Shown one piece after another: positions 1,006-62,422 of a stretch of DNA of 64,000 nt. The position numbers were made by a program, and so were the translations under genes. The stretch spans positions 1 through 64,000 of IMG/VR virus record IMGVR_UViG_3300042691_018527. The stretch is one strand, 5' to 3'. The notes below the pieces were generated by a model. The model was not told the origin of the DNA. It saw only the letters and a program-made list of their open reading frames with translations, and made no database searches. The stretch is from a virus. Numbering within the stretch: the stretch's first letter is position 1; every line of letters starts with the position of its first letter.

Positions 1006-4000
1006 TTATATTGTTACGTTATATGTTGCTGCTTGTGTAAAAGCTGTAACCGGTGTATACTTATAAACTTTATAATTTGTAGCCGTATACGAATTAGCAC
1101 CTTCAACTGAAACTGTACTGGATGTAAAGTTTCCCTTAACATCCGCATCAAAACCTTCTTCATATAAAACAGATGTTACGTTTCTTAATGAACTAGGATA
1201 TGCAAAAACAACATTGGTCGTTCCTATCGGAATAGATATTGTAAAAGTTGATCCATTTGATGGGTTTAATAATGATCCAGCAAGACTTCTGATGTCAGAA
1301 CTATTTGCTGCATTATTATCAACACCATAAAAAGCTTTTCTTCTACCATAAACTGGTGTTGAAACAACTATTGTATTAGATGCAAGAGGAGATAGATAGT
1401 TTTGACCTTTGCTATCAACTGGTTGTGGTCCGGTTGCATATGTAACGCTACCGTTAAATGTATTTGTTCCTTCTTGTATAATTGCAGCTGCTGATGTGTA
1501 TGAAGATGTTGTTCCGTTATTTACACCAAGTATTATATATTGTGTTGCTGTTCCAGATCTATAATCTTGTAAAGTATTTGGATCCCAAATGCCAGAAACC
1601 GTTTTTCCTGTTATTGCACCTCTATTAAGATTTACTGTTAATGTAATTCCTTGAGTTCCTGCTTCAACATTTGTTCCAATACTAGAAGACATCGTGGCAG
1701 ATGGTTCTGTTATTGTTGGGTAATACACTTTTGTTAACAACGTTTCAACAAATTGTTGGAATGAAGTATTCTTTGGAATAACTTGTGAAACTTCTATTCC
1801 ACCAACAGTAACATCGGATGTAACTGGAGACGATAGTGATGTTGCTGTTAATGATGAATTTAATGAAGCAGATACAGAACTAAATTGTGTATATGTTTCT
1901 TGCCAAACACCAGAAGCGTTTTGATATGTTGTGGTTGGAAGAAGTGTTGCAGTAGTCAATGCAACATTTGTTTTATATGTATCAAAATCAGTTGTTAATA
2001 CTAATTGACCTGTCAACGTATTAGTGGTTGTTGTCAATGTCAAAAGAGAAGATACTGAATTTAAAATTGTGTTGGTAACTAATGATGCAGAATTTGTGCT
2101 ATATACAGTCGCATATGAATATGTCGTATCCCAATTAGCAGAAGTATTATTAACTTTTGTGTTAACTTCTAAAATATTTGCAGAATTGTTTTGAACAAAT
2201 GTATTATTAGAAGAATTGAAAGAACTATTCAAGTTAACATATGAATAAACAGAATTCCAATTAGCAGATGTATTATTAACTCTAGAATTTACTTCAAGTA
2301 TGTTAGCTGAATTATTGTTTACAAAAGTATTCGCAAAAGAGTTTAATGAACTATTTGTTTGATAAGAACTGTAAACAGAATTCCAATTTGCAGATGTTGT
2401 ATTTACTCTTGTGTTTACTTCTAATGTATTAGCAGAATTATTACCAACAAAGGTTCTAGTTGCTAGTTCAAACGCACTATTTGAATTTGTATAAGAATAA
2501 ACACTGTTCCAATTCGCTGATGTTGTATTAACTTTACTATTGACATCTAATATATTAGAAGAATTATTATTAACAAATGTTCTTGCTGCTAATTCAAATG
2601 CACTTGTGTTATTATTGAAACTATAAACAGAATTCCAATTAGCAGATGTGTTATTAACTCTTGTGTTAACTTCAAGTATATTAGCTGAATTGTTGTTTAC
2701 GAAAGTATTTGCAAAAGAATTTAATGAACTATTTGTTTGATAGGAACTATAAACAGAATTCCAATTAGCTGAAGTATTATTAACTCTAGAATTTACTTCT
2801 AAAATGTTTGCAGAATTATTATTTGTAAATGTTCTTGTTGCTAGATCAAATGCGCTATTTGAATTAGTATAACTATATACTGAATTCCAATTAGCAGAAG
2901 TATCGTTAACTCTACTATTAACTTGGAGTATATTAGAAGAATTATTTTGTACAAATGTATTATTTGCTGTGTTAGTAGAACTGTTTAAATTGACATAAGA
3001 ATAAACAGAGTTCCAATTTGCAGATGTATTATTAACTCTACTATTAACTTCAAGTATATTAGCAGAATTTGTATTTACAAATGTTCTTGATGCTAGATCG
3101 AATGCACTATTAGTATTTGTATAACTATAAACAGAATTCCAATTAGCGGATGTATTATTGACTCTTGATGAAACGTCAACTAAATTTGAACTATTTGAAT
3201 TTACAAAATTTCTTACTTGTAATTCAAGACCGCTTATGTTATTTGTATAACTATAAACAGAGTTCCAATTTGCAGATGTATTATTAACTCTACTATTAAC
3301 TTCAAGTATGTTAGCAGAATTGTTGTTTACAAAAGTTCTGGATGCTAAATCGAATGCACTATTTGAATTTGTATAACTGTAAACAGAATTCCAATTTCCA
3401 GTCAATGATTTTATGCTGGTATGTGTTTCAATTCCAATGTTTATGTTTGGTTGAATTATGCTTAATAATTCTTGCCCACCAGAAAGTATTCTACCACTTG
3501 TCCATATACTACCACTTGCACTTATCTGACCATTGACTGTGAAATCAACATTTGGACTACTTGTTTTAATACCAACACCGGGAAAATTTCCGTTTGCACC
3601 ACCAACATGTAATACCTCAACGTTTTGATCTATATCATAAAAGGATGCAATGTCACCAGAACCGGTTTGACCAACATAAAGAGCCGGTCCATCTCCAACA
3701 TGTACTACACTAAGTGCTGATGTTGTAGTATAATAAGTGTTAGCAAAATAAGTTCCACCTGTTGCTGACAATACACCATATATTGTTACATTGTTATTAA
3801 ATGTTGTCTGTCCTGTTACTAGACCACCACTATTTGGTAAAAATTTAGAATCAACATAGTTAATTTTTGCATATGTACTGCTATTTGAATTATAAAAACT
3901 ATATCCACTATTCCAATTAGCAGACGTATTGTTTACAACGGTTGAAACATTTACTAAATTAGAACTATTTGAATTTACAAAGTTTCTTACTTGTAACTCC

Positions 4001-5226
4001 AAACCACTCGTATTATTAGTATAACTATAAACACTGTTCCAATTTGCAGATGTGTTATTAACTCTTGTGTTAACTTCAAGTATGTTAGCAGAATTGTTAT
4101 TAACAAATGTTCTAGCTGCTAAATTAAATGAACTATTATTGTTTGTGTATGAATAAACGGAGTCCCAGTTCGCAGAAGTGTTGTTAACCTTTGTGTTTAC
4201 TTGTAAAATATTAGCTGAATTATTATTTGTAAATGTTCTAGCCGCTAGATCAAATGTACTATTAGTATTTGTATAACTATAAACACTGTTCCAATTTGCA
4301 GATGTGTTATTAACTCTTGTGTTAACTTCAAGTATGTTAGCAGAATTGTTATTAACAAATGTTCTAGCACTTAAGTTAAAAGCACTATTTAAATTTGTGT
4401 AACTATAAACAGAATTCCAATTAGCAGAAGTATTATTAACTCTAGAATTTACTTGTAATATATTAGCTGAATTATTACCAACAAATGTTCTTGCCTGTAA
4501 TTCTAACGAACTAGATCCTCTTACGTACGAATAAACACTATTCCAATCCGCAGATGTATTTTTAACTGCCGTGTATACTTCCTGTGCTAAGTTTAAAGTA
4601 GGTTGTAATAGACTTAAAAGCTCAACACCACCGGATAAAAATCTACTTCCGGTATACACGTCTCCGGTTGAACTTAAATTGTTAACATATACAAAAAAAC
4701 TTGAATGTGTTGTTATGTTATCACCTAAAATATATGTGCTTTCGTGGTTTGCTGTATTACTTGTGCCACCTAATATTGCAGAATAATTAGCAGCAGATAA
4801 GATTGTGTTGTTAGAACCACCTAATATTGAAGAAAAATTTGCATTATCTTTTATTTCGTTTGTATACCCACCTAAAATAACAGAAAGATCGGAACTTACT
4901 TTATTTGTTTCTCCATTTAATATTGAGCTACCAGCACCATCTACCGTATTGTTTACACCACCTAAAATAATATCATATGCTTGTGATACATTATTATTTC
5001 CATACTGCGCTTTTATAGAACTAAGAGCACTATTATAAAGATAAGGATATTCTTCTGAATTTAAAAATTTAACAACATATTCACTGCTGTTTGTTTTTTT
5101 CTTTAAAAATAAAATACCATCCGCTGTGTTTACCGCAATTTCACCAGCAGTCAAAGAATTTACTAAAGGAGAATGGCCAATTACATCGCTCTTTTTTAAC
5201 AGAATTTTATTTATAGTTTGCGCCAT
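1006..5226 (-). CDS. Long tail fibre with YadA-like head and 42-residue stalk repeats
   Basis: A 1406-residue Asn/Ser/Thr-rich virion fibre. The N-terminus (residues 1-50) resembles those of the neighbouring fibres (IKxxLLK, SLTAGEIAVNTADG) and is a likely attachment domain. Residues about 80-165 contain repeated SILGGxxNxx units, the pattern of YadA/Hep_Hag trimeric-autotransporter heads. Two blocks of a 42-residue unit (core TSANWNSVYSY, then ARTFVNNNSANILEV) fill about residues 215-460 and 600-1040. Between them lies a module with VGIKTSSPNVDFTVNG, similar to the GIGT-SP motif of many phage fibres. The last 370 residues are unique and beta-rich, the likely receptor-binding end. A strong terminator lies just upstream, so it probably has its own promoter within 5227-5282, where no clear late motif is seen. 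Confidence 0.85.
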   Translation of the reverse strand: MAQTINKILLKKSDVIGHSPLVNSLTAGEIAVNTADGILFLKKKTNSSEYVVKFLNSEEYPYLYNSALSSIKAQYGNNNVSQAYDIILGGVNNTVDGAGSSILNGETNKVSSDLSVILGGYTNEIKDNANFSSILGGSNNTILSAANYSAILGGTSNTANHESTYILGDNITTHSSFFVYVNNLSSTGDVYTGSRFLSGGVELLSLLQPTLNLAQEVYTAVKNTSADWNSVYSYVRGSSSLELQARTFVGNNSANILQVNSRVNNTSANWNSVYSYTNLNSAFNLSARTFVNNNSANILEVNTRVNNTSANWNSVYSYTNTNSTFDLAARTFTNNNSANILQVNTKVNNTSANWDSVYSYTNNNSSFNLAARTFVNNNSANILEVNTRVNNTSANWNSVYSYTNNTSGLELQVRNFVNSNSSNLVNVSTVVNNTSANWNSGYSFYNSNSSTYAKINYVDSKFLPNSGGLVTGQTTFNNNVTIYGVLSATGGTYFANTYYTTTSALSVVHVGDGPALYVGQTGSGDIASFYDIDQNVEVLHVGGANGNFPGVGIKTSSPNVDFTVNGQISASGSIWTSGRILSGGQELLSIIQPNINIGIETHTSIKSLTGNWNSVYSYTNSNSAFDLASRTFVNNNSANILEVNSRVNNTSANWNSVYSYTNNISGLELQVRNFVNSNSSNLVDVSSRVNNTSANWNSVYSYTNTNSAFDLASRTFVNTNSANILEVNSRVNNTSANWNSVYSYVNLNSSTNTANNTFVQNNSSNILQVNSRVNDTSANWNSVYSYTNSNSAFDLATRTFTNNNSANILEVNSRVNNTSANWNSVYSSYQTNSSLNSFANTFVNNNSANILEVNTRVNNTSANWNSVYSFNNNTSAFELAARTFVNNNSSNILDVNSKVNTTSANWNSVYSYTNSNSAFELATRTFVGNNSANTLEVNTRVNTTSANWNSVYSSYQTNSSLNSFANTFVNNNSANILEVNSRVNNTSANWNSVYSYVNLNSSFNSSNNTFVQNNSANILEVNTKVNNTSANWDTTYSYATVYSTNSASLVTNTILNSVSSLLTLTTTTNTLTGQLVLTTDFDTYKTNVALTTATLLPTTTYQNASGVWQETYTQFSSVSASLNSSLTATSLSSPVTSDVTVGGIEVSQVIPKNTSFQQFVETLLTKVYYPTITEPSATMSSSIGTNVEAGTQGITLTVNLNRGAITGKTVSGIWDPNTLQDYRSGTATQYIILGVNNGTTSSYTSAAAIIQEGTNTFNGSVTYATGPQPVDSKGQNYLSPLASNTIVVSTPVYGRRKAFYGVDNNAANSSDIRSLAGSLLNPSNGSTFTISIPIGTTNVVFAYPSSLRNVTSVLYEEGFDADVKGNFTSSTVSVEGANSYTATNYKVYKYTPVTAFTQAATYNVTI
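2100..3415 (-). repeat. 126-bp tandem repeats, C-terminal stalk block
   Basis: About ten in-frame units of 126 bp (42 codons) inside the long fibre gene. Each contains the NWNSVYS core, followed about 15-20 residues later by TFV-NNNSAN-IL-V. Units differ by scattered substitutions, and some share variant centres (SSYQTNSSLNSFAN occurs twice), which suggests local duplication. The period equals six heptads. Confidence 0.85.
2553..2604 (-). repeat. 52-bp inverted repeat, copy 1 (in long minus-strand fibre)
   Basis: On the minus strand this reads the codons for SAFELAARTFVNNNSSN. It is identical over 52 bases to 11846-11897 on the plus strand, which lies in another fibre gene in the same reading frame. 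Confidence 0.85.
3860..4580 (-). repeat. 126-bp tandem repeats, N-terminal stalk block
   Basis: About five to six units of the same 42-codon repeat as the 2100-3415 block, separated from it by a roughly 450-bp non-repeat beta module. Reading order on the minus strand is head, this stalk, spacer module, second stalk, C-terminal domain. Confidence 0.8.
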
Positions 5227-5282
5227 TTGATATATTACTTATTTTTAAAATTTCTTTTATCAATATAAATTTACATTGAATA

Positions 5283-5320
5283 AAAAAACCCGAATTAGTT
5301 GGATCTAATTCGGGTTTTTT
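5283..5320 (-). terminator. Rho-independent terminator between two fibre genes
   Basis: A perfect inverted repeat: AAAAAACCCGAATTAG at 5283-5298 pairs with 5305-5320 around a 6-nt loop. The core is a GC-containing 10-bp stem flanked by A- and T-runs, so it can work in both directions. It lies 18 bases after the stop of the 5339-6556 gene (minus) and upstream of the start at 5226. It would end the transcript of the upstream fibre gene. Confidence 0.9.
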
Positions 5321-5338
5321 GTTTTGAATTACAATTTT

Positions 5339-6556
5339 TTAGAATGATCCACCATCTACAATGAAGTTATAGAGATTGGATACAGCTGATCCCGATAATG
5401 AACCTAGCATTGATATGCTACCATACCCATCCGTATTGATGGTGTAATTATCAAGACTTGATTTACCTGTAACTGTTAATGTATCATCTACTGTTACTTT
5501 TTGGTAGAAGGTTGCATCATTAGCAGTAACAATCATATTACCACCAGCGGCAGAAATATTATTGTTGATGGTTATAGAACCATTTCCATCTGTAACAATT
5601 GTATAATTGTCAAGATTAGATTGACCAGTAACTGTTAATGTATCATCGATTGTAACCTTTTGATAGAAGGTTGCGTCATTAGCAGTTATGATTGTATTTC
5701 CACCAGCAGCAGAAAGATCGTTGTTGATGGTGAGCGAACCAGTCCCAGTGGATGTAATTGTACCACCATCAAAACTTACAGTTCCTAATGCGACTAATCC
5801 TTTTGCTGTGTAAATTAAATCAGTTGCGGAAATTTTACCAGAAACTGTTAATTTTTCATTTGGAGTAGCAGTACCAATACCAACATAACCAGGAGCAGAT
5901 GTTGTTCCATCAATGAACAATGCGGTTGCACCGTCATCTTGGAAATGTGCAATTGGTTGTTGACCTAACTGATTAACATTAAGAGCTACTTGTGATCCAG
6001 AGTTTGTGATGCTAAAAGAGCTTGTAACACTAACTTGTGTATCGAGTTGAGTTGCATTTCCTAATACAGTCAAATCACCTTGTATTGTGACATCACCAGA
6101 TGCATCAATGTCTGTAAAAAATCCTTTTCTGTTTGAATCAATTACTTCAGTTCCATTGATAGTATAATTGTTTGCTTCAACACTAGAAAGAACATCCAAT
6201 GTACTATTAATAGTAACTGCTTTTTCAACGGTTACAACATCTTCGAATACGAATGATTTTATTGCTCTACCAGATTCATTGAAAGTAACTGGTGCATTAG
6301 CAGTAACAGTTGAATTGAAAGTAACTGGAGCTTGAAAAATTTTAGCACCAGAAACATCTTGTGCTAAAACTCTACTAACAAAAGCACCAGGGCCTGCAAT
6401 TGGCATTGCAGACATTCCAAGAACTGTACTTAATCCATAGTAAAGAATTTCATTTTGTTCATTAAATCCAAGTTCACCACTTGTAAGACTTGGCAAGCCT
6501 GTTTGGGAACTATTTAATAACCTACGTTTAATTTGAAGGATGTTTGGTGTTGACAT
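5339..6556 (-). CDS. Fibre-like structural protein with 53-residue repeats
   Basis: A 405-residue protein starting at the ATG at 6556 (MSTPNILQIKRR); an in-frame TTG lies four codons upstream and is less likely. The N-terminus (LTSGELGFNEQNEILYYG) matches the form of the attachment region of the 1406-residue fibre. The middle has a GDVTIQGDLTVLGN strand series and the phage-fibre motif VGIGTATPNEKLTVSG. Residues about 260-370 are two copies of a 53-residue unit (SAAGGN, TANDATFYQKVT, DDTLTVTG, DNYTI). No C-terminal chaperone domain is seen. A short fibre or fibre-associated protein is most likely. Confidence 0.75.
   Translation of the reverse strand: MSTPNILQIKRRLLNSSQTGLPSLTSGELGFNEQNEILYYGLSTVLGMSAMPIAGPGAFVSRVLAQDVSGAKIFQAPVTFNSTVTANAPVTFNESGRAIKSFVFEDVVTVEKAVTINSTLDVLSSVEANNYTINGTEVIDSNRKGFFTDIDASGDVTIQGDLTVLGNATQLDTQVSVTSSFSITNSGSQVALNVNQLGQQPIAHFQDDGATALFIDGTTSAPGYVGIGTATPNEKLTVSGKISATDLIYTAKGLVALGTVSFDGGTITSTGTGSLTINNDLSAAGGNTIITANDATFYQKVTIDDTLTVTGQSNLDNYTIVTDGNGSITINNNISAAGGNMIVTANDATFYQKVTVDDTLTVTGKSSLDNYTINTDGYGSISMLGSLSGSAVSNLYNFIVDGGSF
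5471..5788 (-). repeat. Two tandem 159-bp (53-codon) units
   Basis: The string AACTGTTAATGTATCATC recurs at 5471 and 5630, exactly 159 bp apart, and the surrounding codons align unit to unit with few changes. The repeat keeps the reading frame of the fibre-like gene that holds it. Confidence 0.8.
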
Positions 6557-6598
6557 AAATTGTTTCAAATAATATTTACTCTAGTTGTTTTACAAAAA

Positions 6599-8383
6599 TT
6601 AAAAATATCCACATTCAATTATTCCAGCATCTACCCATGTAAAAGCATAATTCCAGTTTTGTGAATTACCTGATGCATCATATATGATAGAATTTGCACT
6701 AATTGAGCCATTGACTGTAAAATCAACATTCGGTGTGCTTGTTTTTACACCAACGTTAGGATAGTCGCCATCGGCTCCACCAACATGGAAAACTTCTATA
6801 TTTGTATCTAAATCGTAAAGTGATAATATATCACCCAACCCTCTACTTGCAATATATACAGCAACGCCTTCTGGTGCAGTATGCATAATGCACAAAGATG
6901 TACTAGTAGTGTATATTGTGTTTTGAAAATAAGATGTGCCTAATGCAGAAATAGATCCATAGACGGTAAAGTTATTTTGAACTTTTAAATCACCAGAAAC
7001 GGACCCACCACTTATTGGTAAAAATTTTGAATAAACATCTTCAGATGATATATAAGTTGAACTATTTTGATTGTATGTTGTGTAATTAGAATTCCATTGA
7101 TTTGAATTTCCATTATTATCGGAAATTACAGTATTTGAATGTATTTCACCATCTACGTTTAATTTGTATGTTGATGTGTCATCAGTTCCTATTCCAACGT
7201 TTGATGCGAGATATATACCATTTTCTGCATTTAAAGTAATTTGGTTGTCTTGTGTTGTTTCTAATTTGGAATTTCCAGATGTTGCATTTAATACTATTAC
7301 ATTGTCGTTTTGTGCAATAACGTTTGAACCAATTATTTTATTATTACTTGATGCTAGTAATATAAAACCATTTGTTGAAAATGCTTGTATTGTGTCAAAT
7401 TCAGCAAATAATAAATTTAACGAAACATTATACCCTGCTAATGTAAATTCAAATGATCTATTTAAATCATACGCATAACCAATAAATTTATTACCAATTG
7501 TTAACTCTGATGGTGAAAATAAACTTGTTATTGAATTAGAAAATTTAAATGATTTACTAAATCTTTCATACTCAACATATGCTGCCTTTTTACCAATAAC
7601 ATTATTACTTCCAAGTATAATGTTTTGATCTCCTCTAATGGCATTGAAATCTCCGACTATATGGTTTTTGCCGCTAAAGGTTGGTTGATTTAATGGAATT
7701 AAACTTGGTAAATTAAAATTAAGATATCCTTGAGAAAAGAAATCAGATATTTCTAAATTACCAGTAATTTTTCCACCAGTTAAATATAAAAAGTTATTAA
7801 TTAAAAAATCGTATACTTTATATCCTTCCAAATAAAGGGAAGAATTGGTATATAAATTAGTATAAGCTTCTTGCCAATAACCAGATGCTGTTTGTAATAA
7901 AACAGTGTTTACACCAGAAAGAAAAATTGCTGAATTTGTGTATAATGTGGTGTAACTATCTAAATATAAAGAAGAATAAGGAGAATAAAACAAATAAGCT
8001 TCGTTTCCTCTTTTTACTTGCAAATTTGTATTTAAATAAAAATCATCAACTGAATTAGTTAATATATTAAAATCACTTAAATCAGCCTTTAAATTTAATG
8101 CACTTATTGCTAATAAAGAAAGTGGTTTATTTAAGTCACTTGTATTATCAACATTTGAAAGACCGATATCTTGTTTTGTTAAAACAACATTACCTATCTT
8201 ACCATTAACACTTTTAACACCAGATGATTCACATTCTTGAATAAAAACTATGTCATCACCACAATCGGATGAATTTACAATTAAATCAGTTCCATTTGCA
8301 GTTAAACTCAAGCATTCAGAAGAACAGTCCTCGTGTCCGCCGTTATTATCAGATGATAATGTTATAACAATCGTTTTACTCAT
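6599..8383 (-). CDS. Tail-fibre protein with a phage-fibre repeat and head-like segment
   Basis: A 594-residue protein starting at ATG 8383. The first 55 residues are Cys/Ser-rich (six or more cysteines), unlike the other fibres. Residues about 58-95 hold SVNGKIGNVVLTKQDIGLSNVDNTSD, in pieces typical of phage tail-fibre repeat domains. Residues about 235-280 have an IRGDQNIILGSNNVIG segment, again YadA-head-like. The C-terminal 170 residues repeat the module seen in the 1406-residue fibre, including FHVGGADGDYPNVGVKTSTP and VDFTVNGSISAN. It is probably part of the same adhesion apparatus and a paralogue made by domain shuffling. Confidence 0.75.
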   Translation of the reverse strand: MSKTIVITLSSDNNGGHEDCSSECLSLTANGTDLIVNSSDCGDDIVFIQECESSGVKSVNGKIGNVVLTKQDIGLSNVDNTSDLNKPLSLLAISALNLKADLSDFNILTNSVDDFYLNTNLQVKRGNEAYLFYSPYSSLYLDSYTTLYTNSAIFLSGVNTVLLQTASGYWQEAYTNLYTNSSLYLEGYKVYDFLINNFLYLTGGKITGNLEISDFFSQGYLNFNLPSLIPLNQPTFSGKNHIVGDFNAIRGDQNIILGSNNVIGKKAAYVEYERFSKSFKFSNSITSLFSPSELTIGNKFIGYAYDLNRSFEFTLAGYNVSLNLLFAEFDTIQAFSTNGFILLASSNNKIIGSNVIAQNDNVIVLNATSGNSKLETTQDNQITLNAENGIYLASNVGIGTDDTSTYKLNVDGEIHSNTVISDNNGNSNQWNSNYTTYNQNSSTYISSEDVYSKFLPISGGSVSGDLKVQNNFTVYGSISALGTSYFQNTIYTTSTSLCIMHTAPEGVAVYIASRGLGDILSLYDLDTNIEVFHVGGADGDYPNVGVKTSTPNVDFTVNGSISANSIIYDASGNSQNWNYAFTWVDAGIIECGYF

Positions 8384-8582: not shown

Positions 8583-10466
8583 TTATGTTTGCGCAACTTC
8601 TGGTGTTGCTTCTGGCGTTTCACCAGCTTCTGGTGTAGCCTCTGGTGTTGTTGCGGAAGCTGCATCTGGTGTAGCTTCTGGTGTTGCTCCACCAGCAGAA
8701 CCGAATTCTGGTATTTCAGATGCGGTCATTCCTGCGCCTCCTCCGGTTGGCGATCCTCCCATTTCACCTTGTGCTGATTTTGCTGCGTTTTCTGCTGCCT
8801 CTACGTGTTCTCTCCAATTTGGTCCTGTGGTTGCAATTTGTTCAAGTTCCCACTTCATTGCAGCATCTTTTCTTAACCATTCCATGTTTTCACTTATTCT
8901 TGAATCATTATAACCAAGATAGTGTCTTTGTGCAAAAGTTTTTGAAATTGATTCATTTTGAGAAACATCACTAAATAATTTGTATTTAAGTTCAAATTCT
9001 TGATTTTTTCTAATTGCAAAAAAGTTAGAAGGGGGATTAAATTCTAAATTAAAATAAGATTCATGTAATTTATATTCTTTCCACCAATTTCTTATTTTTA
9101 AGTGTGTTATAAATGCATTTTTAATTCCCTCTGCAAACTGATTTTGAAGTCTTACGACAAATTTTGCAAATCGCAATTCTTCTCTTAATATCTCAGCCCC
9201 ATCTTTATATCCATCTTCTGGATTAAGTCTTGTTAAAGGTACTTTTAAACTTTTGTATAATTTATTAACAAAATACATAAGATCTTTAAGTTCACCAAGA
9301 TTTTGACCACCTTGCATTAATTCAACATCTGAACCTTCGCCACCGGCTCTTTTTGCAAACCAATATGAATCAAGCATTGATTGTGGATCAAATACATTTG
9401 CCGCACCATTATTACCACCAGATGATCCACTACCTTGACCATTGTATGCTTTTTTATTCCAATATGATTGCATCAATTGTTTTAAATATGCTTCTGCTTT
9501 TGCTGGTGGCATATTGCCAACATCTATTTTAAATTTAAGTCTTTCTGGTGCTCTTACTAATCTGTAAATAACAATAGAGTCTTCTATTAAAGATAATTGT
9601 TTATAAGCTCTTCTGCAACTTTCTATAAAAGGTAGCCTTATGGACTTGTCTTCATTCCATAGACCAGAGTTTATATATGTTATTTGATTTCCTTGAAATG
9701 TAAGAATTTGTTGTTGTAATGCGTTTGTAGGTGATGGCTGATTGTTTGATAATGAACCATTTTTATCGTCCAATGCAATTGGTTTTTGAAATATAAAATT
9801 TTGTATTACATTATTTTGAATATTATCATATAATGGGTTGATAAGTTCTGATGGTATATTTAAAACACCAATAATGCCTAAATCTGGTTTTAATTCATGT
9901 ATAATGTTTTCAAAAAACAATTCACCTTCAATTAAAAGTTGTCTACAATACCCCCATGCTTTATTTTCTAAATCATATATATTTAAAAATTTGTAAAATT
10001 CTTTTTCTATTTCTTCTCTCTCTTCACTTTCCAGTTTACCAAAGCTGGAAAAATTAAGTTTCATTATTTTTCCATTTTCATCTAAATTTATAAATTCATC
10101 ACAAATTTCATCCAAACAATCGGATACTTCTGCGTATGCTGCCATTCTTCTATATTCTGCGATTCTTCTTAATTTATCTGTGTCTATTTGAGCATAAATA
10201 TATTTGTGATATGCATGATCAGAAATACATGAATTTGGGTCTTGATATCCGCCAAATTCATCTTTCATTGATGGTCCCGTTATAATGGACTGTCTCATCA
10301 ATCTTAATTCTTTTCGTTTGGATAAACGATCAAACAACTCATATCTTGGATTGTTGTTTTCTATTTCTACTGTGTTCCTAACATAAGGTAATTTTGATAA
10401 AATAGAAGATACAAAACTTCTTCCGGTATCCGGTTGTGTGTTACTTGTTGGTAAAAAATCAGCCAT
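8583..10466 (-). CDS. 20: Portal vertex protein (T4 gp20-like)
   Basis: A 627-residue protein that forms the dodecameric portal at the capsid vertex, through which DNA is packaged and ejected. Recognised by the run from SIITGPSMKDEFGG through the helix IAEYRRMAAYAEVSDCLDEI and the LLIEGELFFENI region, and by the later RAPERLKFKIDVGNMP and LNPEDGY segments, all characteristic of the gp20 family. T4 gp20 is 524 residues; the excess here is a Gly/Ala/Pro-rich C-terminal tail with repeated ATPEA units (about residues 585-627), which looks like a disordered extension. The start ATG 10466 has an AATAAATA late-like motif 12 nt upstream on the minus strand. Prohead protease, scaffold and capsid genes are not adjacent, unlike in T4. 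Confidence 0.9.
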   Translation of the reverse strand: MADFLPTSNTQPDTGRSFVSSILSKLPYVRNTVEIENNNPRYELFDRLSKRKELRLMRQSIITGPSMKDEFGGYQDPNSCISDHAYHKYIYAQIDTDKLRRIAEYRRMAAYAEVSDCLDEICDEFINLDENGKIMKLNFSSFGKLESEEREEIEKEFYKFLNIYDLENKAWGYCRQLLIEGELFFENIIHELKPDLGIIGVLNIPSELINPLYDNIQNNVIQNFIFQKPIALDDKNGSLSNNQPSPTNALQQQILTFQGNQITYINSGLWNEDKSIRLPFIESCRRAYKQLSLIEDSIVIYRLVRAPERLKFKIDVGNMPPAKAEAYLKQLMQSYWNKKAYNGQGSGSSGGNNGAANVFDPQSMLDSYWFAKRAGGEGSDVELMQGGQNLGELKDLMYFVNKLYKSLKVPLTRLNPEDGYKDGAEILREELRFAKFVVRLQNQFAEGIKNAFITHLKIRNWWKEYKLHESYFNLEFNPPSNFFAIRKNQEFELKYKLFSDVSQNESISKTFAQRHYLGYNDSRISENMEWLRKDAAMKWELEQIATTGPNWREHVEAAENAAKSAQGEMGGSPTGGGAGMTASEIPEFGSAGGATPEATPDAASATTPEATPEAGETPEATPEVAQT

Positions 10467-10546: not shown

Positions 10547-12328
10547 ATGAACGCCAGAACATATATACACTCTTTACCAGACGCTCCACTTGTTTTAAAT
10601 CCTAATGCATTTACTCTTATAGATTATGCAAATGAGCTTGGTGAGTATTACACAAATAAAATTACTTTGTGTGCTATTGCTGATTTTACTATTTTGGCTT
10701 ATACATATAGTGAATTTTTTCAAGAATCTGAAGAAGCAAATGCATGGGTTAATTCAAACTCAGCTGTTTTAACAATAGATAATATAAACGTAGGGTCTTT
10801 CCAAAATAACAGTGTCACTGTTCCATTGTCTGTATATTCAAATTCAAATTTCCCAGTATATGTATCTGTTAAAAATATAAATTCTGGTCAAGACACAACA
10901 AGTGAAATTAGGTTTGAAAATAATAATTTTTCAAAATATTTAGTTGCTGGCATTCAAGGTACAAATTTTTTCAATCCAACTTGGACAATTGGTCAACCCG
11001 GCGATTCTTATTTATATAGTAGAGGTTCTAATTTACAAATTGGAACAAGAGATTCTAACGATGTTATAATATATTCAAATGGTGCATTCAGAGGAAATGA
11101 AAGAATTGTAATAAAAGGAGATGGTTCTGGTTATATTGGAATAAACACAAGGGAACCAAAATCAAGTTTAACTGTTGCTGGTACAATATCAACAAATGAT
11201 ATCGTGATAGATGCTACTAATAATTTAAATTTTTGGAAACAAGTAGATTCTTATGTGACGGGAACTAGTGCAGCACACAATCAAGTTTTAAATTTTGTAA
11301 ATTCAAATAGTTCTCAACTTTTATTTAAAACTGGTGGTATCGTATCGGGACCATTAATAACAACAAAAACATCAATACCTACATTCTTAACAAATGAACT
11401 AGTTTCAAAACGATATGTTGATGCTATTGCATTTAATACTACTGTATCTGGAAATTTTATTCCTGAGTTATATTATACAATCACTCAAGTTGATGATTTA
11501 TTAGTAAATCCATATTCGGTTTATGCATATGTGAATTACATTAGTTCTTTTAACCAAGAATCTAATTCTTTCACTGAACAAAATAGTTCAAATCTAATTA
11601 ACGTATCAAATTTAGTAAATTTAGTTTCCAGTGATTGGAACAGTGTTTATTCATACATAAACAATTCAAGTGCAGATGAAGCAAATCAAAATAATTCATA
11701 TTTATTTGTTTTTTCAAATAGCTCAAATATAACTGAAGTATCAAATTATATAAACTCAAATTCAGCATCATTTGATATTTTAAATACAGTAGTCAATTCA
11801 ACAACTGCCAATTGGAACTCAGTTTATTCTTACACTAATTCAAATAGTGCATTTGAATTAGCAGCAAGAACATTTGTTAATAATAATTCTTCTAATACAT
11901 TAGATTTAACAACAACAGTTAATTTTCTTTCATCTCGTTGGCAAGATGCTTACACATACACAAGAGATTATAGTTCAATAAACAACGAAGTAAATAGCTA
12001 CGTAAATTCAAATAGTGGTTATATTGGAATATCTTTAGATTCTTATTATGAATCAGCCCCAAACTGGAATTCAGTTTATTCAAATGTAAATTCAAACAGC
12101 GCAACATATACAACAAAAACATATAATGACTCCTTGTATGTTAGCAAAGAAGATGGTGGTACTGTTAATGCAGACGTTAAAATATATGGTGCTTTTTATG
12201 CTGATACTTTTGGTGTTGGTAATCTTGAACCAGCTTCTACATTAGGAAATTTAATAGGTCGTATTGAAATTTTTAATGATGAGAAAACATCTATTGGATA
12301 CTTGCCAGTATACGATAATATAACTTAA
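10547..12328 (+). CDS. Plus-strand tail fibre with NWNSVYS repeats
   Basis: A 593-residue fibre, divergent from the portal and with its stop overlapping the next minus-strand gene by 4 bp. The N-terminus (YIHSLPDAPLVLNPNAFTLI) differs from the minus-strand fibres. Residues about 195-225 carry the fibre motif SGYIGINTREPKSSLTVAG. Residues about 345-520 contain four to five diverged copies of the Asn/Ser repeat (DWNSVYSYINNSS, NWNSVYSYTNSNSAFELAAR), one of them identical in DNA over 52 bp to the long minus-strand fibre. The C-terminus is short and unique. It may be an alternative fibre or a partner subunit. No late TATAAATA box is obvious upstream; a purine-rich GATAGAGA precedes the ATG. Confidence 0.8.
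   Translation: MNARTYIHSLPDAPLVLNPNAFTLIDYANELGEYYTNKITLCAIADFTILAYTYSEFFQESEEANAWVNSNSAVLTIDNINVGSFQNNSVTVPLSVYSNSNFPVYVSVKNINSGQDTTSEIRFENNNFSKYLVAGIQGTNFFNPTWTIGQPGDSYLYSRGSNLQIGTRDSNDVIIYSNGAFRGNERIVIKGDGSGYIGINTREPKSSLTVAGTISTNDIVIDATNNLNFWKQVDSYVTGTSAAHNQVLNFVNSNSSQLLFKTGGIVSGPLITTKTSIPTFLTNELVSKRYVDAIAFNTTVSGNFIPELYYTITQVDDLLVNPYSVYAYVNYISSFNQESNSFTEQNSSNLINVSNLVNLVSSDWNSVYSYINNSSADEANQNNSYLFVFSNSSNITEVSNYINSNSASFDILNTVVNSTTANWNSVYSYTNSNSAFELAARTFVNNNSSNTLDLTTTVNFLSSRWQDAYTYTRDYSSINNEVNSYVNSNSGYIGISLDSYYESAPNWNSVYSNVNSNSATYTTKTYNDSLYVSKEDGGTVNADVKIYGAFYADTFGVGNLEPASTLGNLIGRIEIFNDEKTSIGYLPVYDNIT
11846..11897 (+). repeat. 52-bp inverted repeat, copy 2 (in plus-strand fibre)
   Basis: Perfect match to the reverse complement of 2553-2604. 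Both copies are read in the same frame in their fibre genes. The two genes diverge from each other, so the copies bracket about 9.2 kb that holds both N-termini and the portal gene. Confidence 0.85.
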
Positions 12329-26469: not shown

Positions 26470-27221
26470 CAACACAAGACATTGGAATAGCCATATTAGA
26501 CGTTTATACCGAGGCAGATTTATTAAATTGTTATAATAGCGTATCTGGACTTGAAAACGTTTTAATAGTTTCTAATACAAAAAATAATTTACCTGATTGT
26601 AATTCAAGAAGATATGATAACCAAGTTCCTTTTGCAACACTTAGGAATCATGCATTGTCTCAGTTTAGATTAATGGGTTTAAAACATTTCTTTTTGATAA
26701 ATTCAAACCAAATTATTAAAAATAAAAATGTGTTTTCGGATATTATAAAAACAGCAGAGATATTTGGAACGTGGTGCATAACGGGACCATCTGAAAAATT
26801 ATTGAGTATTGAAGACGATAAAACAAATACATCTTTAACTATATCTGAAAAATTAAATAGCGATTTTATTTACATATTCAATGGTATAGTTTCCAATGTT
26901 GGTTATTTCGATGAAAGATTTTTTAACACAAAAGACTTGGATGTACTTGATTATATTTTAAGAATGAGAGAAAAAGGAGTTTATCCTGTAAAAAACTATC
27001 ATCCAGTTTACACAGAAAACATAGATTCTTCTAATAGTTTGATTCAAAAAATAAACCATAAAGAAATGAATGATGCTGATCAAAGTGTTAATTTATCTTA
27101 TGCATATTTTTTACACAAATATCAATATATGCCATCGCAAAATGACCCAGCGTCAGTATCAAAAGATGAACTTTTAAAAAATTTAGAGGAAATTCAACAA
27201 AAATACGCTAAAAATGAATAA
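26466..27221 (+). CDS. GT-A-like glycosyltransferase-related protein
   Basis: A 251-residue protein, first gene of the glycan island. FATLRNHALSQFRLMGLKHFFLINSNQIIKNKNVF parallels the CRNDAVNFLL and HIFLIEDDMIIKDKNIF region of the next gene, so the fold is GT2-like. In this copy the DD pair is replaced by N-S-N, which may mean loss of activity or a different metal arrangement. VPYFDERFFNTKDLDVLDYILRM-like text near residue 155 is an acceptor-loop feature. It could be a partner or decoy subunit. Confidence 0.6.
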   Translation: MTTQDIGIAILDVYTEADLLNCYNSVSGLENVLIVSNTKNNLPDCNSRRYDNQVPFATLRNHALSQFRLMGLKHFFLINSNQIIKNKNVFSDIIKTAEIFGTWCITGPSEKLLSIEDDKTNTSLTISEKLNSDFIYIFNGIVSNVGYFDERFFNTKDLDVLDYILRMREKGVYPVKNYHPVYTENIDSSNSLIQKINHKEMNDADQSVNLSYAYFLHKYQYMPSQNDPASVSKDELLKNLEEIQQKYAKNE

Positions 27222-28998
27222 CAAAATAGGTCTTGGTTTAATTACATGTGACAGAATTGACTTTTTTACAAAAAGTTTAAATTCTGTTTTAGCATGTTCA
27301 AAGAACATTTCAAATTTTGAATTAGTTGTAATAAATGATGGAAATGAAAAGATAAAAAGATCCGAAAATATTAAAATAATTCAAACTAATGGAAAAACTG
27401 GTGTAGGTAAAGCTAAAAACTTAGCATTAAAATATCTCATGAAAAAAGAGTGTGAGCATATTTTTTTAATGGAAGATGATATCATTATTAAAGATGAAAA
27501 AGTTTTTGATTTATACATAAACACTTCAAAAATAACTGGCATCAAACATTTAAATTATGGGTTACATGGAAATCACAATAGAGATCCACTTGGATCTCCA
27601 GTTGTAAGAAAGACAGTAACATACAAAGACAATGTTACAAAGATAAATCTATACCCAAACATATTAGGTGCATTTAGTTATTATCATATTGATTGTTTAA
27701 ACAAGATTGGTTTGATGGATGAGCAATATTATAATGCAATGGAACACGTCGATCACACATATGTTGCGTTTAAAGCAGGGTTTCACCCACCATTTAGATG
27801 GTTTGCTGATGTATTTGGTTCTGAAAATTATCTAGAAGACATTGTACCAGACCATAAACAGAGTAAAATTCGTAGCGAAGAAAATTTCCAAGAAACTTTT
27901 AAAAAGGGATTAGATATTTTTATAAAAAAACATAATTTTAGTGTAATTGGAAATTACGGACCACCCGAATATCTGTATTCAGAAGAAGAGTGTCTTAAAG
28001 ACTTAAAAAAAATATGGAAGACGCACAATTCAGAAAAAAATAAAGGATATATTCAGACAATTTTAGATAGTTTCTGGACTCCAAAAGCAGATGACATAAA
28101 AAAAAATGAGATTTTGAATAACACAGTTGAAAATATACAAGAAAAAGAACCAGAACCATTACCTGATCCTGAACCTGAAAAAAAAGAAGTAAAGATGATT
28201 AAAAAACAAAAAGTAAAACAAGGGAAGTATGGGAAAATAGGAATAGGAGTAACAACTTATAATTCTGAAGAATATTTCAAAACATTGTTTAATAGTTTAT
28301 ATGATTGTGAATACCAAGAACTTGTAGTTGTTAATGGTGGAGATGAATATAAAGAAAAATATGATTGTGATTGGATACAACACAACTCTAACAACTACCC
28401 ATCTGTGTGCAGAAACGACGCAGTAAATTTTTTATTAAATAGAGGATGTGATCATATCTTCTTAATAGAAGATGATATGATTATTAAAGATAAAAACATA
28501 TTTCAAGAATATATCAAAGCATCTATTAATAGCGGATTAAAATATTTTTCTTTTACTAGTATGTCATGGGAATCTGGCAAACCATTCGAAAGAACACCTA
28601 GACTGACAGTTAATTATAAAAACGGCGTAAGTGTTTCTTTTTATAGAAATATGTGCAATGAGTTTACGTATCACCATAAATCATGTTTTGAAAAAACTGG
28701 ACTATATGATACTCAATTTAGAGATCCATTTGACATAGATATGGCATATAGAGAATCTCAAACCGATTATGCTGCACCATTTTGGTGGTTTGCTGACATA
28801 ACTAATGCTGATCAATACATTCAAAACAACGAAAACGCAAAAAGCAGATTACAGTCAGATAGACCAGATGGATCAAGAGAAGAAAGAATAAAAGAACAAT
28901 GGCAGTTGTTTTATAAAAAACATGGAAAACTAGTACAAGAAATACCAGATACTAACAAAGAAGATGTTGTTAAATTTTTGAAAAAAACGATGAAATGA
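27214..28998 (+). CDS. Tandem two-domain glycosyltransferase (GT2-like)
   Basis: A 594-residue protein made of two related halves. Domain 1 (1-270) has IGLGLITCDRIDFF, VVINDG and HIFLMEDDIIIKD. Domain 2 (345-594) has IGIGVTTYNSEEYF, VVVNGGDE and HIFLIEDDMIIKD. Both keep the EDD metal and nucleotide-sugar site, and both end in a PFRWFADV/PFWWFADI segment. A Glu/Pro/Lys linker (EPEPLPDPEPEKKEV) joins them. This is an internal duplication that may add two sugars in sequence. It overlaps its neighbours by 8 and 4 bp. Confidence 0.8.
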   Translation: MNNKIGLGLITCDRIDFFTKSLNSVLACSKNISNFELVVINDGNEKIKRSENIKIIQTNGKTGVGKAKNLALKYLMKKECEHIFLMEDDIIIKDEKVFDLYINTSKITGIKHLNYGLHGNHNRDPLGSPVVRKTVTYKDNVTKINLYPNILGAFSYYHIDCLNKIGLMDEQYYNAMEHVDHTYVAFKAGFHPPFRWFADVFGSENYLEDIVPDHKQSKIRSEENFQETFKKGLDIFIKKHNFSVIGNYGPPEYLYSEEECLKDLKKIWKTHNSEKNKGYIQTILDSFWTPKADDIKKNEILNNTVENIQEKEPEPLPDPEPEKKEVKMIKKQKVKQGKYGKIGIGVTTYNSEEYFKTLFNSLYDCEYQELVVVNGGDEYKEKYDCDWIQHNSNNYPSVCRNDAVNFLLNRGCDHIFLIEDDMIIKDKNIFQEYIKASINSGLKYFSFTSMSWESGKPFERTPRLTVNYKNGVSVSFYRNMCNEFTYHHKSCFEKTGLYDTQFRDPFDIDMAYRESQTDYAAPFWWFADITNADQYIQNNENAKSRLQSDRPDGSREERIKEQWQLFYKKHGKLVQEIPDTNKEDVVKFLKKTMK

Positions 28999-43913: not shown

Positions 43914-45224
43914 ATGGCATTAAAAATAAAAGAAAACAAAGAAGAACTTAAAAATATAGTTTTTGAGTACAAACCATTTGCTGCTGGATTACCTATGTCG
44001 CCACCTGTTTTACCAGCAGGAATGCCAACATACAGTTACGTTGAACTTAAACCAGTACATATCCCAGCACCACCACCGGTTGAAATGCCAGAAGCAAAGC
44101 TTCCAAGAGCATTAAATTACTATGCTGACTATGGTGGATGTGGATTCTGGAGAATGATATGGCCAGAGTTTTTATTGAACTCATACCAGAAGATGTGTAT
44201 TAGTGGACTAACCAGCATGGTATTAGATTTAAGGTTTTACCAAGGCATAAAAGCAATTAGAATGCAACGCCAAGCTACACCAGTACAAAGAAACTTTATT
44301 AAGGAATTACGTAAAGCCAGCAAAGACATGGGCTTTAAATTACTTTATGAAGTAGATGATATTGTTTTTAAAGATGATATCCCCGATTACAATAGATGCA
44401 AAGAAGCGTTTGTATCACAGGAAATAATTGATAGTATATTAGACATCATGGGAATGATGGATGAAATCACGGTCACATGTAAATACATGAAAGAATATTA
44501 TCAATATAAAACTGGTAATAAGAATATCACAATTATTCCAAACTATCCTCCTAAATTTTGGTTAGACAGATTCTACGATAAAGACAGAATTGAAAAATTA
44601 TACGAGAAGAATAAGAAACGTCCTAGAATTTTATACTCTGGTTCCGGTACACACATTGACGTATTAAATAAAACTGGCTTGAAGGATGATTTTGAGCATG
44701 TAACCGAAGCAATTATCAAAGCTAGAAAGAAATTTAAATTTGTTTGGAAGGGATGTTATCCACTTGCAATAAAACCATACATCGATAACGGAGAAATGGA
44801 ATATATTGACTGGTCAGCATTACCAAACTACCCACAAGGACTTGTTGATACTAATTGTAATGCTGTTTTTGCACCTTTACAAGACAACGTGTTCAATAAA
44901 TCAAAGAGTAATATCAAGATGGTCGAAGCTGGTGGATTGGGATTACCCGGAGCATATCAAGACCTCTGTACATACGAAGAAGCAGAGCTAAAATTCAAGA
45001 CTGGCGATGAGTTAATCGATCACTTATCATATATCACAAAAGATTTTGATAGATACATGGATCTTTCTCAAAAATCTAGAGAATTTACAGAAAAACTTTG
45101 GATGGAAGACCATCTGAATGAATACGAGGCGTTGTATAATACTGATTTTGGGTCAAAGGAAAGAAAAGAAATGGCACCAAGATTAATAGAAAACAATCCA
45201 GATCAAGATTTCGAAAAAAAATAA
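43914..45224 (+). CDS. GT-B glycosyltransferase-like protein outside the island
   Basis: A 436-residue protein with a Pro-rich N-terminus (residues 24-65, PPVLPAGMP and IPAPPPVEMP). YYADYGGCGFWRMIWPEFLL is the acceptor-side loop of a GT4-like enzyme; LLYEVDDIVF, RILYSGSGTHIDVL and FAPLQDNVFNKSKSNIKMVEAGGLGLP give the donor-side lobe, with K-S-x-x-K-x-x-E-A as the usual phosphate/nucleotide-binding stretch. It has its own promoter and sits between gene 46 and DNA polymerase. Possible substrates are phage DNA, virion protein or host glycan; none is shown. Confidence 0.75.
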   Translation: MALKIKENKEELKNIVFEYKPFAAGLPMSPPVLPAGMPTYSYVELKPVHIPAPPPVEMPEAKLPRALNYYADYGGCGFWRMIWPEFLLNSYQKMCISGLTSMVLDLRFYQGIKAIRMQRQATPVQRNFIKELRKASKDMGFKLLYEVDDIVFKDDIPDYNRCKEAFVSQEIIDSILDIMGMMDEITVTCKYMKEYYQYKTGNKNITIIPNYPPKFWLDRFYDKDRIEKLYEKNKKRPRILYSGSGTHIDVLNKTGLKDDFEHVTEAIIKARKKFKFVWKGCYPLAIKPYIDNGEMEYIDWSALPNYPQGLVDTNCNAVFAPLQDNVFNKSKSNIKMVEAGGLGLPGAYQDLCTYEEAELKFKTGDELIDHLSYITKDFDRYMDLSQKSREFTEKLWMEDHLNEYEALYNTDFGSKERKEMAPRLIENNPDQDFEKK

Positions 45225-60730: not shown

Positions 60731-62422
60731 TTATGTTGATGGTTTTTCAGTTTTAGTTTCTTCTTTCTTTTTAAATGGATTTATTGCATTTAATCCATTT
60801 CCAATAGAACCCGTAAATTTAGAAACACCAGTAATTAATTCATCTTTTGCTAATGATGCATTAACACTAGCATCTTGTAAATTTTTATTCAATAATCTAA
60901 AATCTTCTTTAACGTTTCCAATAATATCAGTTGCTTCAATTGGATTACCATAAACATCCATTTTACCACCACTGTATACATTTGGACCAAGAATTTGATT
61001 AGATGTTGGAAATAAACTTGAACCGTCACCGTATCTATTATAAATTGCTTCTGCCTTTGACAGAATATCACCAATTGGCGATGCTTTAGAATATTGTGGG
61101 CCAAATTTATTAACCAATGCACCAACTAAATTTCCTTGTAATGCTGTTGCAATATATGAATAACCATAGTTTGATAACATGTCAGACATGAAAGATCCCG
61201 GATCACTTCCAATTTGATCAACAGTATCCATAATTTTTTGAACATCTGGTGGTAAAAATCCTTTTAACAAACTTAATGGGTTTGGGTTTGTTAAAATATT
61301 AGATGCTGTGTTCATAAAAGTTTGAATTGTATTTAAATAATTTAAAAACGGTCCTGACATATTAAACAAAGATGTAAAGAAATTTATATCATCCATTATT
61401 ACTTGCAGTGTATCTAACAATAAACAAATTAAATCTAATGGAATAATTTCTTCTATTTTTGCCATTAACCATCTTTGTGCTTCTGCAATTAATCCATTTA
61501 CCCATGCATATACTTGTTGAACATATGCAATTATACCATTATATATGTCTGATATGATAGCATTAAATGCTGCAACGACACCATTTATTGCTCTCACAAG
61601 TCTACCAACAGAACTAAAAGCACCTTTGGGCATCGAAAGATATGAGCGTGTTCTTATTGTATTACAAAATTTTTCTAAATTAGTTACTGCATCCGGATGT
61701 ATGTTATTTAAAAGTCTTTCAACTAAACTTGGTGTTGTTTTCTTTGGTCCAGTTAATGGACTTTCTGCCATATTATCAGCATTTGCTTCAGTTACACCTT
61801 CTTTTCCTATTTCATCAAAACAACCTTTTTGCCATGCTGGTGTTTTTTTCAATGCCTCTTGTAATAATGGTTGTTTTGCCATCTTGAAAAAGTCATTTAA
61901 AAATGCTTCATCTATAATATATTTCTCATGACCTTGTACTGACGATGATAGTGTTTTATTATCAAATCCATATACTAATAATGCCAATAATAAATAATAC
62001 TTGTTTATATTTAAATTACTAAATTGATGTTTTATTCTTGCTAATTCACCGCCAAATAAATATGGATATAATGTTAAGTTAGTTTGTTTTTCAAGTGTTC
62101 TTATTTCTTCTTTAGTAACATCTGTTTTTGCAACAGGTGTGGCTAATTTAGTTTGATCAATAACTTGTTTTGGTTTATCGGCAGGATTTTTTCTTGTTTG
62201 TGGTGGAACTTGGTTTGGTTTTGCAACAACAGAAGGTTGTGGTTGTGTTGGACCATAGTCTCTACCTAATTCTGGAAAGGTAACAGAAGGTTGTGGTTGT
62301 GTTGGACCATAGTCTCTACCTAATTCTGGAAAGGTAACATCATTTGTTTTTGCTTGTCTAGTTTGTGGTGCTGGTTCGTAGTTTCTACCTAGAACTGAAA
62401 ACTCTTCATCTTTTGTTGCCAT
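60731..62422 (-). CDS. Baseplate-region structural protein with LGRDYGP repeats
   Basis: A 563-residue protein, the gene before the hub lysozyme (3-nt gap). Residues 8-70 carry three copies of an F-x-x-LGR-x-Y-x-P-x-x-Q unit; two are identical over 18 residues and match in DNA. The middle (about 255-400) is hydrophobic and helical (INGVVAAFNAIISDIYNGII, IIPLDLICLLLDTLQVIM), which could be buried or membrane-active. The C-terminus is Lys/Glu-rich. It may be a hub or tail-tip protein; no T4 homologue is recognised. ATG 62422 has a weak GAGTAAG upstream. Confidence 0.65.
   Translation of the reverse strand: MATKDEEFSVLGRNYEPAPQTRQAKTNDVTFPELGRDYGPTQPQPSVTFPELGRDYGPTQPQPSVVAKPNQVPPQTRKNPADKPKQVIDQTKLATPVAKTDVTKEEIRTLEKQTNLTLYPYLFGGELARIKHQFSNLNINKYYLLLALLVYGFDNKTLSSSVQGHEKYIIDEAFLNDFFKMAKQPLLQEALKKTPAWQKGCFDEIGKEGVTEANADNMAESPLTGPKKTTPSLVERLLNNIHPDAVTNLEKFCNTIRTRSYLSMPKGAFSSVGRLVRAINGVVAAFNAIISDIYNGIIAYVQQVYAWVNGLIAEAQRWLMAKIEEIIPLDLICLLLDTLQVIMDDINFFTSLFNMSGPFLNYLNTIQTFMNTASNILTNPNPLSLLKGFLPPDVQKIMDTVDQIGSDPGSFMSDMLSNYGYSYIATALQGNLVGALVNKFGPQYSKASPIGDILSKAEAIYNRYGDGSSLFPTSNQILGPNVYSGGKMDVYGNPIEATDIIGNVKEDFRLLNKNLQDASVNASLAKDELITGVSKFTGSIGNGLNAINPFKKKEETKTEKPST
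62229..62336 (-). repeat. Two perfect tandem 54-bp copies
   Basis: 62229-62282 and 62283-62336 are identical over 54 bp, encoding 18 residues with LGRDYGPTQPQP. A third, diverged copy lies nearer the N-terminus. The perfect identity suggests a recent duplication or slippage. Confidence 0.9.

Follow-up and report, generated by a model that had tools for sequence, protein, structure and literature searches.

A modular fibre protein of a T4-type phage, with a head related to the beta-rolls of bacterial adhesins and long polar stalks of 14/42-residue repeats

Phage fibres help determine host range and are normally anchored through their N-terminus. Bacterial trimeric autotransporter adhesins are anchored through their C-terminus, and their N-terminal head is distal. 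In the present study we examined a fibre gene in the virus record IMGVR_UViG_3300042691_018527, 86,011 bases long, of which bases 1-64000 constitute the stretch of DNA analysed here (hereafter the window). An initial annotation, made from the sequence of this window, had described the fibre as built like a trimeric autotransporter adhesin. The locus raises the question of whether a phage carries a true adhesin of bacterial origin or a fibre that resembles one in part, and of which fold its long repetitive stalks adopt. We consider it fairly probable, although far from certain, that the protein forms a modular, homotrimeric fibre with coiled-coil stalks in a T4-type phage. In such a fibre the N-terminus would dock on the virion and would be followed by a head folded as a YadA/UspA1-like beta-roll, serving as a proximal structural block. 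Two long and very polar stalks would come next. They would probably form parallel trimeric coiled coils in which each 14-residue repeat supplies two heptads, with one d position in most of these pairs carrying a polar Thr/Asn layer. The stalks would be separated by a beta-type module, and a beta tip at the C-terminus would bind the host. Phages would have multiplied and exchanged the stalk units, the module and the tip, with consequences for fibre length and host specificity.

The fibre is encoded by a single open reading frame at 1006-5226 on the minus strand (1406 residues), in agreement with the single gene initially annotated. Its parts, whose boundaries were set by eye, are listed below.

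5041..5226 (-), residues 1-62: N-terminal segment, kin of the neighbouring gene at 5339-6568 (27% identity) and of relatives (38-41%)
4711..5004 (-), residues 75-172: head repeats, predicted to be a beta-roll of the YadA/UspA1 type from profile searches and a reversed control
4612..4710 (-), residues 173-205: putative neck-like segment (FVYVNNLSSTGDVYTG); a similar stretch follows the head in relatives
3895..4566 (-), residues 221-444: stalk 1, with five complete 42-residue units plus a partial sixth
3427..3864 (-), residues 455-600: module of beta-type sequence, shared with 14 relatives at 53-75% identity and also found in the neighbouring gene at 6599-8383
2029..3414 (-), residues 605-1066: stalk 2, with ten complete 42-residue units plus a partial eleventh
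1837..2028 (-), residues 1067-1130: linker, rich in Thr and Ser by composition
1009..1836 (-), residues 1131-1406: C-terminal tip, modelled as beta structure, with a putative role in receptor binding

The complete protein matched no family of Pfam or PHROGs at an expectation value (E) ≤ 1, including any PHROGs family of the T4 long tail fibre kind (gp34-gp37), and none of NCBIfam at E ≤ 0.01. A search of the PDB sequences with the single protein gave a haem transport protein as its sole match (E 0.99). The blocks recognised in the initial annotation are real; what it had missed is the reversed polarity discussed below and the sharing of blocks with neighbouring genes. The locus is a construction set made of an anchor, a beta-roll, a 14-residue stalk, a module and a tip, the pieces of which turn up again in the neighbouring genes; some of them also occur at 35 loci from 30 viral contigs.

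The repeat geometry of the stalks is strict. The motif VxxTSANW recurs at a spacing of exactly 42 residues over five intervals in stalk 1 and nine intervals in stalk 2, as expected from the 42-residue units first noticed, and 216 residues, with the module in between, separate the last motif of stalk 1 from the next one matched in stalk 2. A period of 126 bases was detected by Tandem Repeats Finder, and the units total 15 full ones and two that fade out. The initial annotation had also described Asn, Thr and Val as recurring every seven residues. The self-similarity of the consensus unit, evaluated with 5000 shuffles, was strong at a lag of 14 (p 0.0002) and at chance at a lag of 7 (p 0.34), and the true sub-repeat is one of 14 residues. 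Among the motif spacings of up to 60 residues in the fibre proteins of the window and its relatives, 204 of 241 were multiples of 14 and a single one was an odd multiple of 7; 11 were of 29 residues, as if one residue had been skipped. Pure arrays of 14-residue repeats of the type VKDTSANWDSVYTS, up to 21 consecutive, are present in relatives L022 and L025. The 42-residue unit consists of three 14-mers, which is still compatible with heptads, the heptads being an interpretation. A different stalk, made of 28/29-residue units (NYQGTDIKALTGDWNSTYNTV), was seen at residues ~480-700 of the L019 fibre.

A coiled-coil stalk is likely but unproven, on the evidence of the following sequence tests. When position a was placed at the V of VxxTSANW, the a/d set was the most hydrophobic among the seven registers in the 15 window units (p 0.019, uncorrected), and the same register gave the greatest excess of variability at b, c and f (p 0.042). 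The variability test on the 14-mers of relatives (31 different) gave p 0.017 for this register. It was still the best for variability after a looser selection with W-N/D-S as the only anchor, which yielded 91 units, 48 of them different (p 0.039 for all, 0.084 for the different ones), and the corresponding hydrophobicity values were 0.006 and 0.013. For the typed 14-mer consensus, hydrophobicity reached p 0.0024. Thr or Asn predominates at d of the first heptad in each 14-mer, and a test for strand-like alternation on the stalk was negative. No proline and 0.6-1.8% glycine were found in the 686 stalk residues. None of the PDB matches of a stalk-only profile (E ≤ 10) was significant; of the four entries obtained (E 0.11-0.6), three were variants of a single chemoreceptor type and the fourth was a protein whose name refers to its coiled coil. 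A profile of stalk plus module retrieved Hermes transposases (E 0.064-0.089) and a serine protease (E 0.72), taken as chance. In one of the 14 relatives surveyed (L024) the module is preceded by a textbook heptad stretch with LLVLVIVLA at a/d; at least one NSANW-like motif lies upstream of the module in eight, and neither feature was found in five, one of which has few upstream residues. Adhesin stalks carry N@d layers. PMC4786415 describes N@d layers and alpha/beta coiled coils in the stalks of adhesins and phages, with polar residues at d in regular heptads, as would be the case in the stalks proposed here.

Several observations weigh against this assignment. The set of 14-mers that gave p 0.017 had been chosen by a pattern that fixes some letters at a, d, e and f, which favours the result, and in the looser set a second register nearly ties in hydrophobicity (p 0.019 and 0.012). 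The p values are modest, and once multiplied by the seven registers only 0.0024 and 0.006, both for hydrophobicity, remain below 0.05. Column 22 of the window 42-mer, an a position, holds polar or charged residues, and the d that follows is mostly Ala or another small residue, so that the central heptads are weak. Furthermore, AlphaFold2 (single chain, 17 aligned sequences) modelled stalk 1 as beta strands in 42-residue phase. This is the sole structural result on the stalk, and one of low confidence, the predicted local distance difference test score (pLDDT) being mostly 45-67. The other AlphaFold2 model showed no structure at the end of stalk 2 (pLDDT 21-25) beyond one short helix spanning residues ~1048-1061, preceded by another of three residues. 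The proposal of a parallel trimeric coiled coil with a polar core thus has the sequence tests leaning towards it, with one register best in both hydrophobicity and variability, and the near-tied register and the beta model leaning away. A confident beta prediction, which would have refuted the proposal, was not obtained: the pLDDT over stalk 1 was low, as given above, and Foldseek found no PDB fold at E ≤ 0.001 for the stalk-plus-module model.

The strongest alternative is that the stalk is a beta fibre of 14-residue layers, such as a roll or a solenoid, with three layers per 42-residue super-repeat, and we regard it as possible but unlikely. Apart from the AlphaFold2 strands in phase with the repeat, it would suit a composition in which Ser, Thr and Asn make up 51-54% of the stalks, and it has a precedent in the C-terminal beta-roll head of BpaC, which, according to PMC9543794, has a 42-residue super-repeat of three 14-residue layers and a Thr/Asn-rich core. 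However, according to the same paper, Gly at layer position 8 is conserved in every layer of BpaC and completely conserved in the adhesin beta-rolls compared, whereas the stalk units have no mainly-Gly column; because this Gly is missing, the stalk is, to judge from its sequence, not an adhesin beta-roll. A beta fibre would also have no Pro and almost no Gly for its turns, and the alternation tests are negative while the heptad tests lean positive. As for the model itself, it matched no PDB fold at E ≤ 0.001, and AlphaFold2 is reported to yield beta-solenoids from perfect repeats of random sequence (PMC11795689); we therefore gave the beta stalk little weight. The stalk parts of both models were judged unusable.

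Whether coiled coil or beta fibre, we suggest, tentatively and with more doubt than conviction, that the Ser/Thr/Asn-rich 14-residue repeat represents an unrecognised fibre fold of many uncultured phages. It would be either a coiled coil running for hundreds of residues in which every second heptad contributes a polar layer, or a beta fibre of a new kind, distinct from the adhesin roll. The 14/42-residue stalk is unnamed in the literature searched, in a coverage without most subscription journals, and unmatched in the family libraries searched, and both this polar stalk and the case of tip exchange described below look new. If the coiled coil is true, the stalk is an extreme natural test of the polar core layers that can be tolerated, and to our knowledge such a run of alternating polar layers would be longer than any other known; if it is not, the stalk is an undescribed fibre fold. 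Repeat-type Pfam matches in the fibres of relatives were discarded as having no family meaning (ABCA12_C, 3.5e-22, and DUF948, 0.0098, in L018; DUF948, 2.2e-4, in L022; LAMTOR5, 0.0048, in L005); DUF948 is a family which we take to be helical. LbR_Ice_bind in the L014 fibre (0.011) is a beta-roll match, and among these weak matches only ABCA12_C passes its cut-off.

The head contains the repeats DIILGGVNN, SVILGGYTN, SSILGGSNN and SAILGGTSN, all within residues 85-157. A profile built from the heads of the window and its three nearest relatives was compared with 177,635 PDB sequences and had UspA1 as its top match (E 1.7e-6), with nothing else below 0.6. When the same four sequences were reversed no adhesin was found in the PDB, the best E being 0.29. 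Nine phage head pieces used as a profile matched UspA1 (3pr7, 1.5e-26; 3ntn, 9e-11) and the trimeric autotransporter adhesin 3wp8 (4.2e-9); the fourth and last match at E ≤ 10 was the ice recrystallization inhibition protein 3ult (0.0015). With the UspA1/YadA-type heads the phage head shares repeats of ~15 to 17 residues, a G-G-x-x-N core and an ILG-S/D-N cap, and the profile alignments reveal a FILGSN-like end cap common to the phage heads and the UspA1-type matches, which argues for relatedness. These profile comparisons indicate, at the level of sequence, a kinship between the phage head and the left-handed parallel beta-roll heads of true trimeric autotransporter adhesins, and the YadA-like SILGGxxN repeats of the initial annotation are upheld. 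On the other side, the value of 1.7e-6 is a whole-sequence value summed over the repeats, the best single stretch having an E of 0.064, and the PDB matches of the head profile are affected by a large composition bias, so that convergence of a short repeat may be an alternative explanation. The search proposed against the YadA head family gave a divided result, as the PDB profile finds UspA1 while Pfam YadA_head (PF05658) matched neither the fibre protein (E ≤ 1) nor the proteins of seven relatives, nor the record (E ≤ 10).

The order head-stalk-module-stalk-tip, taken at first as typical of adhesins, was confirmed. The YadA anchor (PF03895) had no match in the 86-kb record, in which search an E. 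coli control was positive, and none in the fibre protein (Pfam, E ≤ 1). Moreover, the head lies near the N-terminus and the tip at the C-terminus, an order opposite to that of a bacterial adhesin, provided that the N-terminus faces the virion. The kinship of the N-terminal segment with that of the neighbouring gene, together with the usual polarity of phage fibres, makes the head probably virion-proximal, and virion attachment is the probable role of the N-terminal segment. Its PDB profile gave only two unrelated matches (E 1 and 1.7). Attachment could be to the tail or to the capsid; the N-terminus encoded by the neighbouring 409-residue gene resembles a Synechococcus phage S-CBS2 protein annotated as head decoration (E 1e-4). 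Because the YadA anchor is missing and the head is probably virion-proximal, the fibre protein is not a trimeric autotransporter adhesin, with which it has one domain in common and an adhesin-like layout. A YadA domain in a pelagiphage fibre was published in 2014 (PMC3909814). In that publication it likewise appears as an adhesin-type domain in a phage fibre with repeats, but there the N-terminus is of the T7 type and the YadA domain is C-terminal, whereas the present fibre belongs to a T4-type phage and has an N-terminal head and a different stalk.

The initial annotation had read the adhesin-like build as a sign of exchange between phage and bacterial surface proteins. This is not supported; exchange between phages is supported instead. 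Three relatives (L019, L020 and L021) carry a related neighbouring gene and fibre, and the last two also part of the portal gene. Their identity to the window is 46-48% for the neighbouring gene, 39-42% for the fibre N-terminus, 44-46% for the head and 88-91% for the tip, the portal being 72 and 70% identical in L020 and L021; at the DNA level the values are 85-87% for the tip and 72-73% for the portal. The tip is closer than the portal, and these sequence comparisons support its recent exchange between phages, strong selection on the tip being a less likely explanation. The fibres of L020 and L021 (491 residues) consist of head and tip with almost no stalk. In the L022 and L025 fibres, the same 14-mer stalk leads to other C-terminal repeats, so that other tips are mounted on it; these repeats look propeller-like by eye, and those of L022 match FG-GAP (PF14312, 1.8e-14).

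Acquisition of the gene from a bacterial trimeric autotransporter adhesin, followed by adaptation as a fibre, we hold to be improbable. It would account for the kinship of the head to UspA1 and 3wp8 and for the head-stalk layout, and a bacterial counterpart of the head was found. A species-genome scan with the head of relative L012 gave 26 stretches with one relative, the Bacteroidetes contig L040, which at 4146-6251 encodes a 701-residue beta-roll repeat protein 37% identical to the relative's head. However, in Pfam this protein passes the cut-off of LbR_Ice_bind, a model of grass antifreeze beta-rolls, and has no match to a YadA family; the presence of an ice recrystallization inhibition protein among the PDB matches further indicates that such rolls are widespread. 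The YadA anchor is absent from both protein and record, as stated above, and a species-genome scan with six short peptide patterns of the fibre protein, which reaches close relatives only, gave 16 stretches and no relative. Beta-rolls of this kind thus occur on bacterial contigs; direct gene movement from bacteria is not supported. The head of a relative had no match among 50,697 phage records. Beside the beta-roll gene, L040 carries a gene of the PAPS-reductase type and one for an NHL protein with a type IX secretion tail. Least probable of all is an intrinsically disordered stalk acting as a polar flexible linker, which would fit the Ser/Thr/Asn content and the pLDDT of 21-25 at the end of stalk 2, but not the strict 42-residue phase or the columns of Trp, Val, Tyr and Phe that vary little or not at all across the 15 units, both of which point to a structural constraint.

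The module had no match among the 50,697 phage records and was modelled only at a pLDDT of ~35-60. The AlphaFold2 model of the tip is a beta structure with a pLDDT of 51-75 in the last 127 residues and lower upstream. Neither a profile of the tip alignment nor, at E ≤ 0.001, Foldseek with the tip model found a PDB match. An alignment with VIA-align (50 rows listed, Z up to 5.7, many immunoglobulin-like) was set aside as reflecting a common arrangement rather than kinship. Sequence relatives of the tip are found in Salisaeta icosahedral phage 1, Faecalibacterium phage FP_Brigit and one unassigned phage (five records), covering 18-19% of the fibre at ~30% identity, and the moderate-confidence model has fold relatives in Tenacibaculum phage PTm5 (Foldseek E 4.3e-10) and in proteins of crAss-like phages. 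For the named phages and the crAss-like phages the likeness is limited to the tip, and no match outside it was reported. The tip relatives in these phages hint at a Bacteroidota host, and the tip is presumed to bind the receptor.

The fibre gene sits among phage structural genes, namely those of a portal protein, a tail sheath stabilizer and other fibre-like proteins:

5339..6568 (-): fibre-like gene of 409 residues, with an N-terminus related to that of the fibre
6599..8383 (-): fibre-like gene of 594 residues that also holds a module copy; minor tail proteins of PHROGs are matched over its residues 55-107 (best E 1.6e-12)
8583..10466 (-): T4-type portal protein gene (PHROG 213, 1.1e-98)
10547..12328 (+): fibre-like gene of 593 residues, in which copies of the 42-residue stalk reach 82% DNA identity (over 133 bases)

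This neighbourhood is of the T4 type, with the portal and tail sheath stabilizer and, farther on, a UvsX-like recombinase, a DNA polymerase and a replicative helicase. The portal is ~30% identical to those of Synechococcus and Prochlorococcus phages (best 20 of 2490 records). A perfect 54-base tandem repeat of 2.1 copies lies at 62228-62339, inside a frame of 563 residues that has no PHROGs match at 1e-5. The phage also carries glycosyltransferase-like genes (PHROG 2456, 1579 and 7162) at 27214-28998 and 43914-45224 of the window. Finally, the gene at 2-439 is cut by the end of the record, and its start resembles, by eye, a 644-residue frame at ~6426 in L025.

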